From Clostridia bacterium (GTDB taxonomy: Bacteria > Bacillota_A > Clostridia > Oscillospirales > CAG-272), in the NCBI GenBank assembly GCA_017395725.1, contig JAFQOB010000175.1, forward strand, positions 1 through 9,380: a DNA stretch of 9,380 bases, given 5' to 3'. The translations under genes and the position numbers were made by a program. The number at the start of each line of letters is the position of its first letter. Position 1 is the stretch's first letter. Positions 3,193 to 9,380 of this stretch are shown piece by piece. The notes below the pieces were generated by a model that was given only the letters and a program-made list of their open reading frames with translations, had not been told where the DNA came from and searched no databases.

Positions 3193-3230
3193 AACAACTG
3201 AGCATAAAATAATACGCTCAGTTGTTTTTT
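3193..3230 (+). terminator. Rho-independent terminator after araC/nadE remnant
   Basis: AACAACTGAGC (3193-3203) pairs perfectly with GCTCAGTTGTT (3216-3226) in an 11-bp stem with a 12-base loop, followed by a T run to 3230. It ends rightward transcription. The T run overlaps the stop codon of the convergent YD-repeat gene. In the leftward direction the U tract is poor, so it may stop that transcript only weakly. Confidence 0.85.
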
Positions 3231-4476
3231 AATATGACTTATACCAAGAGTGGTCCTCTTTATGTATAATATGCTTTTCTCCATAATAAGCATAATTACA
3301 CCAACCCGAAGAAGATTCTGTACGTACTATGTTTCCTTTGTCATCATAAAAATAATTCCGCGTTGATTCACTTATGCCATAATTCTCGTCGTAATCCATA
3401 TTATACTCAAACAAACAGTTACCGTTTTTATCGTAAGAACGTTTCACTTCATTATGCAAAACAAACTCTTCGTCATCGTCAACCAAAAGCGATGTATCTA
3501 ATACGCTCAAACGATGCAAAAGCATATTCCCGTTTTTATCGTATCGGTTCTCTTCGACAATAATTTCTTCAGGTTTCTCTTTTTTTCGGGTAAGTAAATT
3601 GTATTTTCCGTCATAAGTACATTTTACAAGCTCATTTAAATCACCGTTTTTATTTGTTGTTTTTGACCAAACCACCTTACCTCCGCCGTTATATTTATAT
3701 TCAGTCAAAAAACGGCGTTGACCGTCTGCCTCAAGTAATTCGTTACTAATCTTATTCCCATTTTTGTCATAGCCGTACTTTCTTGTTAATCCTACAGCCC
3801 CGGCTTCATTAAAGCTGGTCTCCTTAATCACCCTGTTTTTATTATCATATTCATATTCAGTAGTAACAATATTATCCCTAATTACCCTAATACGATTTCC
3901 TTTTTTGTCATATTCATAACGAAAAACCACATCACTTTCTGTGCTTTTTGAAAGAATAACGTTGCCGTACTTGTCATATTCATATTCCCGTATCCTTACC
4001 TCTTTCCAAGGATTAGTCCATTTTTCAGAAGTAAGATTGCCATTTGAATCATAGGTATATTCAAAACTTGATCTAATCTCACCGCTTTTGGCATTCTTCT
4101 CAATTTTAGAAATCCACTGCCTTTTTTCATCAAAATTATATTCGGTTATTCGGTTGCCTCCGTCGTGAACCCATATTTCCTCTTTATCATAGCATACCTT
4201 AAAGTCATTCAAATAACTGATGCTATCTCTATATTCCCCAAGTTCTTTAAATAGCAGGTATGCCTCTTCGTACTTCTTTTTTTCAATAAGCATTACAGCC
4301 CTCTCATACTTCAACTGCTCTTTGGTCGGACTTACTGCAACCAAAGCGGCAACAATAAAAACAAACAAAAGCAAACAGAAAACAACAAGCATTTTCTTTG
4401 AAAAGAACTTGCCCCAATGCTTTTTTTCTTTATTATTTGTTTCATTAACCATGTCAATGTTTAAATTATTATCCAT
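3229..4476 (-). CDS. Membrane-anchored YD-repeat (RHS-like) protein
   Basis: A 415-aa protein of unknown function. Residues 1-28 are polar and end in KFFSKK. Residues 29-48 form one strongly hydrophobic helix, without a lipobox or an obvious cleavage site, so it is probably an uncleaved signal anchor with the C-terminal part outside. Residues about 53-89 (YERAVMLIEKKKYEEAYLLFKEL...) look like one or two TPR-type helices. From about 110 to the end there are some ten YD/RHS-type repeats, such as YEYDKKGNRI, YDKNGNKISN and YDDKGNIVRT. RHS/YD repeats form beta-wound shells or strips at cell surfaces, often in polymorphic toxins. Here there is no RHS core-end motif and no toxin domain, so a surface or adhesion-type role is only an inference. 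AGGCGG lies just upstream of the ATG at 4476. The gene appears to be a single-gene transcript. Confidence 0.85.
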   Translation of the reverse strand: MDNNLNIDMVNETNNKEKKHWGKFFSKKMLVVFCLLLFVFIVAALVAVSPTKEQLKYERAVMLIEKKKYEEAYLLFKELGEYRDSISYLNDFKVCYDKEEIWVHDGGNRITEYNFDEKRQWISKIEKNAKSGEIRSSFEYTYDSNGNLTSEKWTNPWKEVRIREYEYDKYGNVILSKSTESDVVFRYEYDKKGNRIRVIRDNIVTTEYEYDNKNRVIKETSFNEAGAVGLTRKYGYDKNGNKISNELLEADGQRRFLTEYKYNGGGKVVWSKTTNKNGDLNELVKCTYDGKYNLLTRKKEKPEEIIVEENRYDKNGNMLLHRLSVLDTSLLVDDDEEFVLHNEVKRSYDKNGNCLFEYNMDYDENYGISESTRNYFYDDKGNIVRTESSSGWCNYAYYGEKHIIHKEDHSWYKSY

Positions 4477-4528
4477 ACTGCCGCCTCGCTTTTGTGGTAA
4501 ATATAAACAAAACAGTTATTACGTTTTT

Positions 4529-4558
4529 ATTATACAACAGTAATTATATACAATTCAA
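4529..4558 (-). promoter_or_regulatory. Promoter of the YD-repeat protein gene
   Basis: On the reverse strand, TTGAAT (4553-4558), an 18-base spacer and TATAAT (4529-4534) lie about 50 bases before the ATG at 4476. The next leftward terminator is immediately upstream, so the gene needs its own promoter. A second TATAAT-like hexamer a few bases upstream lacks a comparable -35. Confidence 0.55.
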
Positions 4559-4570
4559 CAACATTATGTA

Positions 4571-4616
4571 AATAAAAACCTACCATAGAATCACACAATC
4601 AATCTATGGTAGGTTT
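4571..4616 (-). terminator. Rho-independent terminator (leftward)
   Basis: AAACCTACCATAGA (4576-4589) pairs perfectly with TCTATGGTAGGTTT (4603-4616), a 14-bp stem with a 13-base loop. Read leftward, it is followed by TTTTTATT, as in a typical intrinsic terminator. It ends transcripts coming from the nuclease gene and possibly from the bcp operon beyond it. Confidence 0.82.
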
Positions 4617-4642
4617 ATTATTATATAAAACACAGGCTATAT

Positions 4643-4701
4643 ATAAGCCTTCTCCAGCGGAGAAGGGGGACCACGAAGTGGTGGATGAGGAGAGCATTTA
4701 T
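4643..4701 (+). repeat. Left inverted-repeat arm, double-hairpin palindromic repeat
   Basis: The arm contains two tandem hairpins: CCTTCTCC-AGC-GGAGAAGG (4648-4666) and ACCAC-GAA-GTGGT (4670-4682), then GGATGAGGAGA. It matches the right arm exactly over 4643-4693, and over 4643-4701 with one mismatch at 4694. It overlaps the stop codon of the nuclease gene at 4698-4700. Confidence 0.93.
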
Positions 4702-5081
4702 CTCTTATTATTAATCTTTAAATCATTTGCAGTTAATCCAAGACATTTCAAAATATCCTCGCATACAACATTGAAATTGGTATTAACATCCAAATTTCTA
4801 TATCTTAATACCGTAACTCCTAAGCTTCTCAAATCAGCATCCCTTTTTTCATCTGCTTGTTTGTTTTCTGGCAGTCTATGCTGTGAACCGTCAAGTTCTA
4901 TTACCACTCTTTTACTTGCAATAAAGAAATCCACAATATAATTCCCTATAGTTTTTTGTCTATTTACAGTCATAGGTAATTTTTTCAAAAAATCATACCA
5001 TAAATGCTTTTCTTCATCTGTCATATTCTTACGTAAATTTTGAGCATTGGTTTTTAGTTTTCTGTTATAATTATAAATCAT
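4698..5081 (-). CDS. DUF559 family, Vsr-like PD-(D/E)XK endonuclease
   Basis: A 127-aa protein of the DUF559 family, full length for the group. It opens with the usual NAQNLRKNMTDEEKHLWYDF segment (12-31). The nuclease core follows: QKTIGNYIVDFFI with D51, then VVIELDGSQH with E62, D64 and H68, matching the D...ExD pattern of Vsr/PD-(D/E)XK folds, then RDADLRSLGVTVLRYRNLDV. The catalytic residues look intact. Members resemble very short patch repair endonucleases, but no cytosine methyltransferase gene is nearby and the biological role is unknown. An in-frame TAA just upstream makes the ATG at 5081 the first usable start. The ribosome binding site is poor: the only AGGAG is 17 bases upstream, inside the repeat arm. 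It is co-directional with the bcp operon, so read-through may help to express it. Confidence 0.88.
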   Translation of the reverse strand: MIYNYNRKLKTNAQNLRKNMTDEEKHLWYDFLKKLPMTVNRQKTIGNYIVDFFIASKRVVIELDGSQHRLPENKQADEKRDADLRSLGVTVLRYRNLDVNTNFNVVCEDILKCLGLTANDLKINNKR

Positions 5082-5089
5082 ATTTTTTT

Positions 5090-5148
5090 ATAAATGATCT
5101 CCTCATCCACCACTTCGTGGTCCCCCTTCTCCGCTGGAGAAGGCTTAT
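5090..5148 (-). repeat. Right inverted-repeat arm, double-hairpin palindromic repeat
   Basis: Exact reverse complement of the left arm over 5098-5148, with ATAAATG (5090-5096) also matching inward. A 9-base direct repeat, TTTATAAAT, occurs on both edges of this arm (5087-5095 and 5148-5156). This could be a target duplication of a single repeat insertion or simple AT richness. Confidence 0.93.
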
Positions 5149-5180
5149 TTATAAATCCTCATTTTCACGCAATTGCACGC

Positions 5181-5226
5181 CTCATCCGTCGCCTAAAGGC
5201 GCCACCTTGTCCACTGGAGAAGGCTT
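5181..5226 (-). repeat. Solitary diverged copy of the same palindromic repeat family
   Basis: It begins CTCATCC and ends GGAGAAGGCTT like the right arm, in the same orientation and 32 bp away. The inner hairpin differs: CGCC-TTTA-GGCG instead of ACCAC-GAA-GTGGT (read leftward), so pairing is kept while the bases change. The other hairpin has one mismatch (CCTTGTCC against GGAGAAGG). It lies just after the bcp stop codon but lacks a U tract, so it is not a standard terminator. It may be a non-autonomous relative of the element. Confidence 0.75.
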
Positions 5227-5233
5227 TTTGTTA

Positions 5234-5686
5234 TTACAGCTCTGCAAGTATTTCTGCCGCATTGGTATCGGGTTTTACCTTAGGCATAACCTTTTCAATA
5301 TTGCCCTCTTCGTCAATAACAAATGTGGTTCTTACAACACCCATACTTACTTTTCCGCACATTTTCTTTTCCTGCCATACGCCGTATGCTTCAATAGCCA
5401 CTCTGTCGGGGTCAGAAAGCAATACAAAGGGCAGGTCATACTTTTCAGCAAACTTAACGTGTGATGCTACACTGTCTTTACTTATACCGATAACCTCGCA
5501 ATTCTTTGTTTTAAATTCATTATACGACTCACCGAATGCGCACGCCTGACGGGTACAGCCCGGAGTATTATCCTTGGGGTAAAAATATACTACCACCTTT
5601 TTACCGCGAAAATCTGAAAGAGATACGTCGTTTCCATCTTTATCCTTTAACGTAAAATCGGGTGCTTTTTGTCCTATCTGCAACAT
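5234..5686 (-). CDS. bcp: Thioredoxin-dependent peroxiredoxin, Bcp/PrxQ type
   Basis: A 150-aa thiol peroxidase that reduces hydrogen peroxide and organic hydroperoxides using thioredoxin. It has the PrxQ-type N-terminus IGQKAPDFTLKDKDG, followed by VVYFYPKDNTPGCTRQAC with the peroxidatic cysteine C44 and the resolving cysteine C49 five residues later, as in atypical 2-Cys Bcp proteins. A further family block is VRTTFVIDEEGNI. The length is normal and no signal sequence is present, so it is cytoplasmic. AAAGGAG precedes the ATG at 5686 and overlaps the stop of the upstream gene, which is 14 bases away. It is the last gene of the sfsA operon. Given this sequence, alternative assignments are unlikely. 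Confidence 0.96.
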   Translation of the reverse strand: MLQIGQKAPDFTLKDKDGNDVSLSDFRGKKVVVYFYPKDNTPGCTRQACAFGESYNEFKTKNCEVIGISKDSVASHVKFAEKYDLPFVLLSDPDRVAIEAYGVWQEKKMCGKVSMGVVRTTFVIDEEGNIEKVMPKVKPDTNAAEILAEL

Positions 5687-8390: not shown

Positions 8391-9167
8391 ATGTTCATTT
8401 GTCCTGTGTGTAAAGAAAAGCTGACAGAACTTGAGAAAAGCTTTGTTTGCCCTAATAATCATAATTTTGATAAGGCTAAACAAGGGTACGTTAATTTACT
8501 TATGTCCAGTAAGCAAGGCAATCACGGCGACGACAAGCTTATGGTAAAAGCAAGGCAGACTTTTCTTGAAAAAGGTTATTATGCGCCAATGCGTGAAGCC
8601 GTAAATACTGTCTTAGGCAAAGGAAATACCGTTCTTGACGCAGGTTGCGGCGAGGGTTATTATACAAACCTTTTTGCTGAAGACAACAATGTTTTTGGCA
8701 TTGACGTGTCCAAAGAAGCACTGAAAGTAGCGGCTCGAAAGTGCAAAAATGCCGCTTTCGCGGTTGCAAGTATATACGAGTTGCCTTTTACCAATAATTC
8801 CTTTGACGTGTGCATAAATATATTTGCCCCCGACAGCCCGACGGAATTTTTACGTATACTTAAACCAAAAGGCAGACTCATAATGGTTACACCTATGGAA
8901 AACCATTTGTTTGAGCTAAAAAAGGCAGTATATGAAGTGCCCTATAAAAACGAATACGTTAACCCCGAGAGAGACGGATATATTATAAAATCTTCAACCG
9001 AGCTGAAATATGATATAACCCTTGAAACGAATGAAGATATTGTTTCTCTCTTTAAAATGACGCCATATTATTATAACACTTCTCCCGCAGACAGACAAAA
9101 ACTCGACATTATTGATACTTTAAAAACAAGAGTCGAATTTCTTGTTACAGAATATGAAAAAATATAA
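8391..9167 (+). CDS. rlmA: 23S rRNA (guanine-N1)-methyltransferase, RlmA family
   Basis: A 258-aa SAM-dependent methyltransferase of the RlmA group, which methylates N1 of a guanine in helix 35 of 23S rRNA (G745 in the Gram-negative type, G748 in the type called TlrB/RlmA(II)). The N-terminal zinc site is complete: C4, C7, C20 and H24. It is followed by FDKAKQGYVNLL, a signature block of the family. SAM motif I is VLDAGCGEGYY (81-91), then FGIDVSKEALKVAA and VASIYELPF. FKMTPYYYNTSP (near 224-235) matches the LLxMTPF region of the family. The ATG at 8391 has AAAAAGGGA upstream and gives the standard N-terminus. Gram-positive members are usually type II; which of the two bases is methylated cannot be told here. 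Confidence 0.94.
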   Translation: MFICPVCKEKLTELEKSFVCPNNHNFDKAKQGYVNLLMSSKQGNHGDDKLMVKARQTFLEKGYYAPMREAVNTVLGKGNTVLDAGCGEGYYTNLFAEDNNVFGIDVSKEALKVAARKCKNAAFAVASIYELPFTNNSFDVCINIFAPDSPTEFLRILKPKGRLIMVTPMENHLFELKKAVYEVPYKNEYVNPERDGYIIKSSTELKYDITLETNEDIVSLFKMTPYYYNTSPADRQKLDIIDTLKTRVEFLVTEYEKI

Positions 9168-9215
9168 ATATCTTGCCACAAAACATTAAAGTATGTTTTA
9201 TGGCAAGATATTTTT
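9166..9215. terminator. Long bidirectional terminator between rlmA and a convergent gene
   Basis: Outer arms 9166-9178 and 9201-9213 (core TATCTTGCCA/TGGCAAGATA) pair over 13 bp. After one C-A mismatch, AAAACAT (9180-9186) pairs with ATGTTTT (9193-9199) around a 6-base loop. A T run follows on the plus strand to 9215, and an A-rich run before it supplies U residues in the leftward direction. It overlaps the rlmA stop codon. Confidence 0.85.
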
Positions 9216-9218
9216 GTT

Positions 9219-9380
9219 TTAAGATTCTTTTCGTTTTTGTCTTCTTACTCGGTTGATATGCCTTTCAAAATCTCCGCTGTTTATCAGCTCTGCTAAAACA
9301 AGCTGTTCGAAAGCAGGTACGGGGCAAGTATAAAACCCCACTTTTTTGGCAAACATCTCTATACATTTTTTGGGCAATAC
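9219..9380 (-). pseudogene. MocR-like (GntR/aminotransferase) C-terminal segment, probably truncated
   Basis: The reverse strand is open from the right edge for 53 codons to a TAA at 9219. The peptide contains FYTCPVPAFEQLVLAELI, then NSGDFERHINRVRR, closely resembling the region of MocR/PdxR-type regulators where a PLP-dependent aminotransferase domain follows a GntR helix-turn-helix. Those proteins normally continue with about 90 further residues after HINRMRxxY. Here the frame stops nine residues after HINR, immediately before the terminator at 9166-9215. Neither of the other frames I followed restores the missing part. The gene is therefore probably 3'-truncated and perhaps inactive; the 5' part is outside the window. 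A plain aminotransferase of the same fold is an alternative. Confidence 0.65.

Follow-up and report, generated by a model that had tools for sequence, protein, structure and literature searches.

Several described systems share features with the locus considered here, which lies in a window of 9,380 nucleotides (the whole stretch of DNA that was analysed) from a Clostridia bacterium and in which one DUF559 nuclease gene stands between two inverted structured repeats. In REPtrons, i.e., REP sequences with a RAYT/TnpA-REP gene (Di Nocera 2013, PMC3733652, in its accessible part), structured repeats likewise lie around one nuclease gene, gene-less repeats exist and copies occur within host genes; unlike REPtrons, the unit here has a nuclease with a predicted Vsr/I-Bth0305I-like fold instead of the Y1 HUH transposase, and no GTAG tag. 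The EDxHD homing endonucleases (I-Bth0305I) and Vsr share with the nuclease here the predicted fold and, presumably, the catalytic-type residues, but the unit here is bounded by structured repeats and occupies varied sites, and at the window no RNA family is matched. Rickettsia palindromic elements and CGTC REPs, in the accessible parts of PMC10969869 and PMC3733652, are, as here, palindromic repeats lying in-frame in genes and lacking a known transposase; the repeats here differ from them in layout, and CGTC REPs were rejected as the cognate repeat, with no CGTC-tagged ATTCC/ATCCC-type repeat present within 260 bp of the 18 DUF559 loci from the plasmid collection. MITEs are gene-less pairs with inverted ends and common interiors, and so are the gene-less pairs discussed below, the presumed partner of which is, unlike that of MITEs, a single Vsr-like nuclease and no DDE transposase, and for which a regular short target duplication was not found.

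For the repeats themselves, a described counterpart is given by the BoxC/PIT/TMECO repeats. As portrayed in the accessible part of Holder et al. 2015 (PMC4666352), these consist, as here, of a C-rich/G-rich hairpin and a mirror-related third block, and are dispersed, sometimes as inverted pairs, over variable loci; TMECO is reported there in 262 genomes, and that part of the paper states that mobility activities were never found around TMECO sites. The Clostridia repeat differs from TMECO in having a variable second hairpin between the duplex and the third block, and its loop exceeds the definition of that paper. In the literature searched, which left subscription papers and preprints mostly outside, no link of DUF559, COG2852 or ycjD to inverted or structured repeats was found, and within the bounds of that open literature the link is new here.

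The nuclease gene of the window (127 aa, minus strand, 4698–5081, from the ORF list and Pfam) overlaps a plus-strand ORF at 4606–4941 and is enclosed by an arm at 4643–4693 (minus strand, 3' relative to the gene) and an arm at 5098–5148 (plus strand, 5'), which, with limits set by hand, are exact 51-bp reverse complements. The repeat finder gives arms at 4638–4701 and 5090–5153 (64 nt, 97% complementary, with 388 nt between). What the preliminary description had claimed, namely exact 51-bp inverted arms with hairpins boxing one DUF559 gene, is confirmed. The double hairpin proper occupies 4648–4689 in the 3' arm and 5102–5143 in the 5' arm. From the gene outwards, the 5' arm has the tail CTCATCC (5102–5108), the variable hairpin 2 (5109–5121), the linker CCC and hairpin 1 (5125–5143), CCTTCTCC-GCT-GGAGAAGG; the second hairpin of the window arms is ACCAC-TTC-GTGGT, and the tail, as GGATGAG, faces the gene. 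The inverted-flank score of the window is 48.5, whereas a score of 14 is attained at just 3 of 624 random positions that cover an equal span, so the inverted arms are not due to chance. A divergent solo repeat of like layout (the CTCATCCGTC form, plus strand, about 5181–5226, from the repeat finder with limits by hand) lies between the unit and its neighbour on that side, a peroxiredoxin gene at 5234–5686 which we take to be bcp-type; the neighbour on the other side is an RHS/YD-repeat gene at 3229–4476. An Rfam search over 4500–5400 gave no match up to E≤1, and a known RNA family was rejected on this ground. Among nine proteins of the window scanned by family, the sole methyltransferase is RlmA-like, and at the end of its gene, at 9159–9220, there is a terminator-like inverted repeat of 28 nt with a loop of 6 nt.

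The nuclease matches Pfam DUF559 (PF04480) with 100.6 bits, the curated cut-off being 20.6; two other matches, MTES_1575 and NCBIfam PRK09767.1, are both below the cut-off, and 7986 of 8000 scored candidates match the protein at E≤1e-10. Residues E24, D51, E62, G65, H68, D77 and R80 are kept across 45 aligned DUF559 proteins, and E24, D51, H68 and D77 are presumably those of the EDxHD catalytic motif. The AlphaFold2 model (pLDDT 88.3) matches the solved fold of I-Bth0305I (3r3p) with a probability of 1.00 and a TM-score of 0.81 by target length; the Neisseria endonuclease-like protein 3hrl is also among the best fold matches and is the sole sequence match, and Vsr (1cw0) is a weaker fold match. 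The nuclease is thus predicted to have an I-Bth0305I-like catalytic fold. Identity as a RAYT/REP pair was rejected: the enzyme is a DUF559 protein, not a Y1 HUH tyrosine transposase, and no GTAG tag is visible in the arm. The preliminary description had likened the arms to REP sequences, which has to be given up, since they are no GTAG REPs and resemble instead the triplex-motif BoxC/TMECO repeats as described in the accessible part of PMC4666352, as seen in the mirror test of tail and hairpin.

Of 60 distinct repeats, collected with a search pattern that places no demand on hairpin 2, 45 form a Watson-Crick stem of length 5 or more there, versus a mean of 2.2 and a maximum of 8 on shuffling. 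Hairpin 1 covaries, with T-A in 25 and C-G in 27 repeats, 7 of 59 fitting neither assignment. The fold is, to judge from these changes, preserved through compensation while the sequence drifts. The mirror score of a tail with its own hairpin 1 has a mean of 3.84 over 56 distinct pairs, versus a mean of 3.29 and a maximum of 3.70 over 1000 re-dealt sets, with 30 of the 56 pairs falling short of the line for a near-full match; in the window, the reversed CTCATCC pairs up with CCTTCTC except for a single A opposite T. The tail would therefore resemble the third strand of a triplex over hairpin 1, a third block that mirrors the hairpin duplex being what defines the intrastrand triplex motif. Note that the 16 nt separating the blocks in the window (second hairpin and linker) lie outside the ITxF loop definition of 1–6 nt.

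Scanning the genome contigs yielded 37 related loci; by eye, many of these, in Clostridia, Nomurabacteria, Bacteroidota and other groups, are flanked by repeats that share a layout and are specific to a clade, with some loci showing a single arm or no arm. Together with genome searches and a plasmid collection, this supplied 214 distinct DUF559 domains, of which 6 that did not have 150 bp of clean flanking sequence at each side were excluded and 208 were used; the set is a convenience sample centred on the relatives of the window, many of the genomes are MAGs, and the thresholds were chosen by us. With a local score of at least 14 within 250 bp, inverted repeats flank 98 of the 208 loci versus 3 of 624 positions drawn at random from those loci, a lenient control; on the opposing side, 110 of the 208 have no inverted pair at this threshold. 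Direct flank repeats occur at 44 of 208 loci versus 4 of 624 random positions. With each locus labelled by the search that fetched it, inverted flank repeats are found at 60/130 loci in Clostridia (control 1/390), 12/22 in Patescibacteria (0/66), 15/30 in Bacteroidota (0/90), 9/18 in plasmid-collection records (2/54) and 2/8 in other groups (0/24). A gene-boundary control on an earlier set containing duplicates gave 27/65 for DUF559 versus 9/223. An absence of enrichment for flanking repeats among DUF559 homologues, which the preliminary description had named as the outcome against it, is therefore not what is seen.

The hairpin finder gives a similar account in Clostridia: a double hairpin lies on both sides of 31 of 130 DUF559 loci versus 1 of 233 other genes, and on any side of 90 of 130 versus 56 of 233, the last figure being inflated because neighbours share one intergenic repeat; at 40 of the 130 loci no double hairpin was detected within 150 bp. 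At Clostridia loci 110 repeats have the tail inward and 24 outward; by eye, tails point inward around Clostridia genes and outward in Deinococcus, Nomurabacteria and the MetH inserts. Units with class B repeats (defined below) have a constant spacing, with the 3' arm overlapping the stop codon. At three loci (L016, L186, L191) the inverted repeat runs, by eye, past the arms, so that flanking DNA is duplicated in inverted form.

The repeats fall by tail into class A (CTCATC), class B (ATCCCTC) and class C (TTCCACC), plus near forms. On the protein tree of the Clostridia nuclease domains (2 of 130 removed by the HMM-coverage filter, 45 of 128 rows without a single class being uncounted), the class changes 8 times, versus a mean of 34.9 on shuffling with 0 of 200 shuffles as low; the branches are mostly weak and the class detector requires the A/B/C tails. 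When the labels are exchanged inside seven hand-picked multi-class genomes, only 1 of 1296 labellings is as low, namely the observed one, which argues against plain species confounding in those seven genomes. The agreement of class and clade would fit co-transport as well as recognition. DUF559 may recognise or cut its own repeats, as the preliminary description suggested, and we keep this conditional because the linkage also follows if both merely travel together.

In the draws from Bacteroidota and Nomurabacteria, the DUF559 domain is found in-frame within long genes, its borders having the look of translated repeat sequence. In the wider phylum, where 42 of 149 genomes have a match, weak DUF559 matches inside long frames seem to represent a different branch and were set aside. 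From their sequence, we take the host genes in the draws to be those of MetH, LeuRS, HsdR-like and HsdM-like proteins and others. For MetH in the family of genome G482, 2 of 19 genomes have the insert, 16 are uninterrupted at the site and 1 has no comparable match; the site is 22–24 aa long in the 10 uninterrupted relatives read and 165–192 aa in L168, L169 and L153. The insert has clear arms in L168 and L153, and degenerate ones in L169. The MetH site is common to G482 and G568. LeuRS has inserts at two places, and at either place other insert-bearing LeuRS genes are empty: the insert of L164 has no equivalent at that place in L038 or L127, and L164 in turn lacks that of L142. By eye, a LeuRS site is shared between loci of the Bacteroidota and the Nomurabacteria draws. 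LeuRS of L038 contains, beside the DUF559 insert, another segment of about 186 aa, small-hydrolase-like by eye and absent there in L127, inside similar repeat-derived peptides, which is possibly cargo, and LeuRS of L127 has at about aa 521–630 an additional in-frame insert, NUDIX-like by eye, with no counterpart in the aligned L164, L038 and L142. In Deinococcus psychrotolerans, a DUF559 gene with arms scoring 53.5 lies between paaD and paaZ. At the locus of the window, the comparison of bcp/YD-repeat intergenic regions proposed in the preliminary description gave only a loose answer: by eye, the 450 bp after bcp contain neither gene nor repeat in nine relatives, and the gene order there differs.

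Duplications of host flanks were found by alignment at L044, L107 and L026/L024 only, with 42, 69 and 97–104 bp; because they are long and variable, and at few loci, no regular target duplication is evident. A regular target duplication seen via solo repeats was also rejected: direct flank repeats of at least 20 occur in 5 of 28 cases versus 0 of 99 controls, and the cases printed are tandem-array-like. In L044 (1341–2100) the last 42 bp of the host gene are present three times, the third with differences, one copy standing ahead of the DUF559 unit and two ahead of solo class B repeats.

Repeats are also found away from the gene. The class A pattern occurs in 67 of 146 genomes of one family, the reversed-pattern control giving 0 everywhere, and is present in 50 of 64 genomes with DUF559 versus 17 of 82 without (Fisher p = 2.5e-12, without phylogenetic correction, for class A only and in largely fragmented genomes); it is missing from 14 of the 64 genomes with DUF559, and 10 genomes without DUF559 have 6 to 61 copies. 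In G195 the ratio of repeats to gene is 74 to 1, and G282 has 61 repeats and no DUF559 match at E≤1e-15. In 20 regions chosen by hand, often since two matches lie close together (12 in G282 and 8 in four other genomes), 12 contain repeat pairs less than 250 bp apart, with tails inward in 11 and outward in one (L296), and the interiors of the gene-less pairs are 23–165 bp long. G282 has two pairs of elements whose interiors are homologous, with identities of 73% and 86%, well beyond those of shuffles, and the interior of a fifth element, L283, matches none of the others. Inverted ends and a common interior in gene-less copies, by which MITEs are recognised, are both present, and the gene-less pairs in G282 may be read as MITE-like families. 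At L290 (G258:C9) the repeat pair stands three times in tandem with about 83 bp of flank between, as if repeat and neighbouring DNA had been amplified jointly.

In E. coli, 3365 of 5426 genomes have the DUF559 gene ycjD, which is placed between sapF and fabI and whose end extends into a BoxC/TMECO-like repeat. By eye this repeat is near the TMECO pattern, and it is matched in 5352 of the 5426 genomes at a median of 17 places. In a spread of 60 records, of which 59 were used, one plasmid record being excluded, the repeat has 14–33 places in genomes with ycjD (median 22, n = 37) and 1–24 in genomes without (median 9, n = 22; p = 6e-9), where the query included the end of ycjD and so adds one place to genomes with the gene, and where phylogroup is a strong confounder according to the accessible part of PMC12817139. 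As a clean pair of empty and occupied sites ycjD was rejected, since two strains without it hold efflux genes there; the occupants of the sapF-fabI interval (L258–L260) are alternatively ycjD (K-12) or the efflux genes (UTI89, strain 138), which are the eef operon in the accessible part of PMC12817139.

Taken together, these data lead us to the reading, to which we give a probability of about 65%, that the locus is a compact mobile unit in which a Vsr/EDxHD-type nuclease gene lies between two inverted structured repeats, gene-less repeats being mobilised in trans. That the unit moves is what we infer by comparison: the arrangement is found at many sites in several phyla, with clade and repeat class going together, and DUF559 apparently lies in-frame in conserved genes whose relatives are without the insert, gene-less pairs forming what look like MITE-like families. 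The repeat-plus-nuclease mobile system without RAYT that the preliminary description proposed is upheld in this respect, by the enrichment, the class following the nuclease, the empty sites and the MITE-like pairs, while its limitation to Clostridia is not. A plain free-standing homing endonuclease gene that cuts particular host sites, with the repeats as a separate mobile family tagging along, would account for the predicted I-Bth0305I match with EDxHD-like invariant residues, and for one MetH site in both G482 and G568 and a LeuRS site that recurs by eye across draws; we regard it as unlikely, because elsewhere the gene lies in diverse host genes or between genes, where the constant neighbour is the repeat and no host sequence, and gene-less repeat pairs make families of their own.

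It may also be supposed that repeat-rich intergenic sites tolerate insertions and that DUF559 is a host repair or defence nuclease often located there as a passenger, in line with a repeat on at least one side of many other genes of the same loci (the inflated figure above) and with the accessible part of PMC12907096, where the Caulobacter DUF559 protein VsrA acts in a DNA damage phenotype connected with a methyltransferase. This is quite unlikely in view of the excess of DUF559 loci flanked on both sides, the tracking of nuclease clade by repeat class inside genomes, the DUF559 domains embedded in individual conserved genes, their borders derived from repeats, and the fixed spacing of class B units with the 3' arm over the stop codon. 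Highly unlikely is a role of the repeats as RNA (terminators, stability hairpins or guide-like RNA) that regulates or assists DUF559, mobility being secondary: the compensating changes in the hairpins suit RNA as well as single-stranded DNA, but copies can far exceed the gene number, as in G195, repeats lie in-frame within other genes and serve as ends of MITE-like pairs, and earlier work cited in the accessible part of PMC4666352 gave no promoter or terminator activity for the E. coli form.

For the compact mobile unit, the following pathway can be envisaged. The nuclease would recognise the folded repeat, hairpin- or triplex-capable and probably single-stranded at the replication fork, and would nick or cut at or beside it. 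Repair would then copy the unit into the break in the fashion of a homing endonuclease, sometimes with neighbouring DNA, and a gene-less repeat pair could be copied into the break in trans. On this view, repeats standing alone or in pairs would represent non-autonomous derivatives as well as old insertions.

More tentatively, and with odds that we place somewhat short of even, the units may form a pan-bacterial class of transposable element whose sole protein, a Vsr/EDxHD nuclease recognising hairpin- or triplex-folded repeats, moves itself and, in trans, gene-less repeats (BoxC/PIT/TMECO and clade-specific versions) by a chemistry unlike that of DDE, HUH and recombinase transposases. The in-frame occurrence of DUF559 within MetH and LeuRS is striking by itself. 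The triplex-motif repeats (BoxC, from the 1990s, and TMECO) have been without a reported mover, and a cognate nuclease makes their origin testable, E. coli K-12 included. If true, the proposal would assign a function to the highly abundant DUF559 family, whose members are mostly annotated as unknown or repair-like, and would add a nuclease-and-structured-repeat element unrelated to RAYT/REP.
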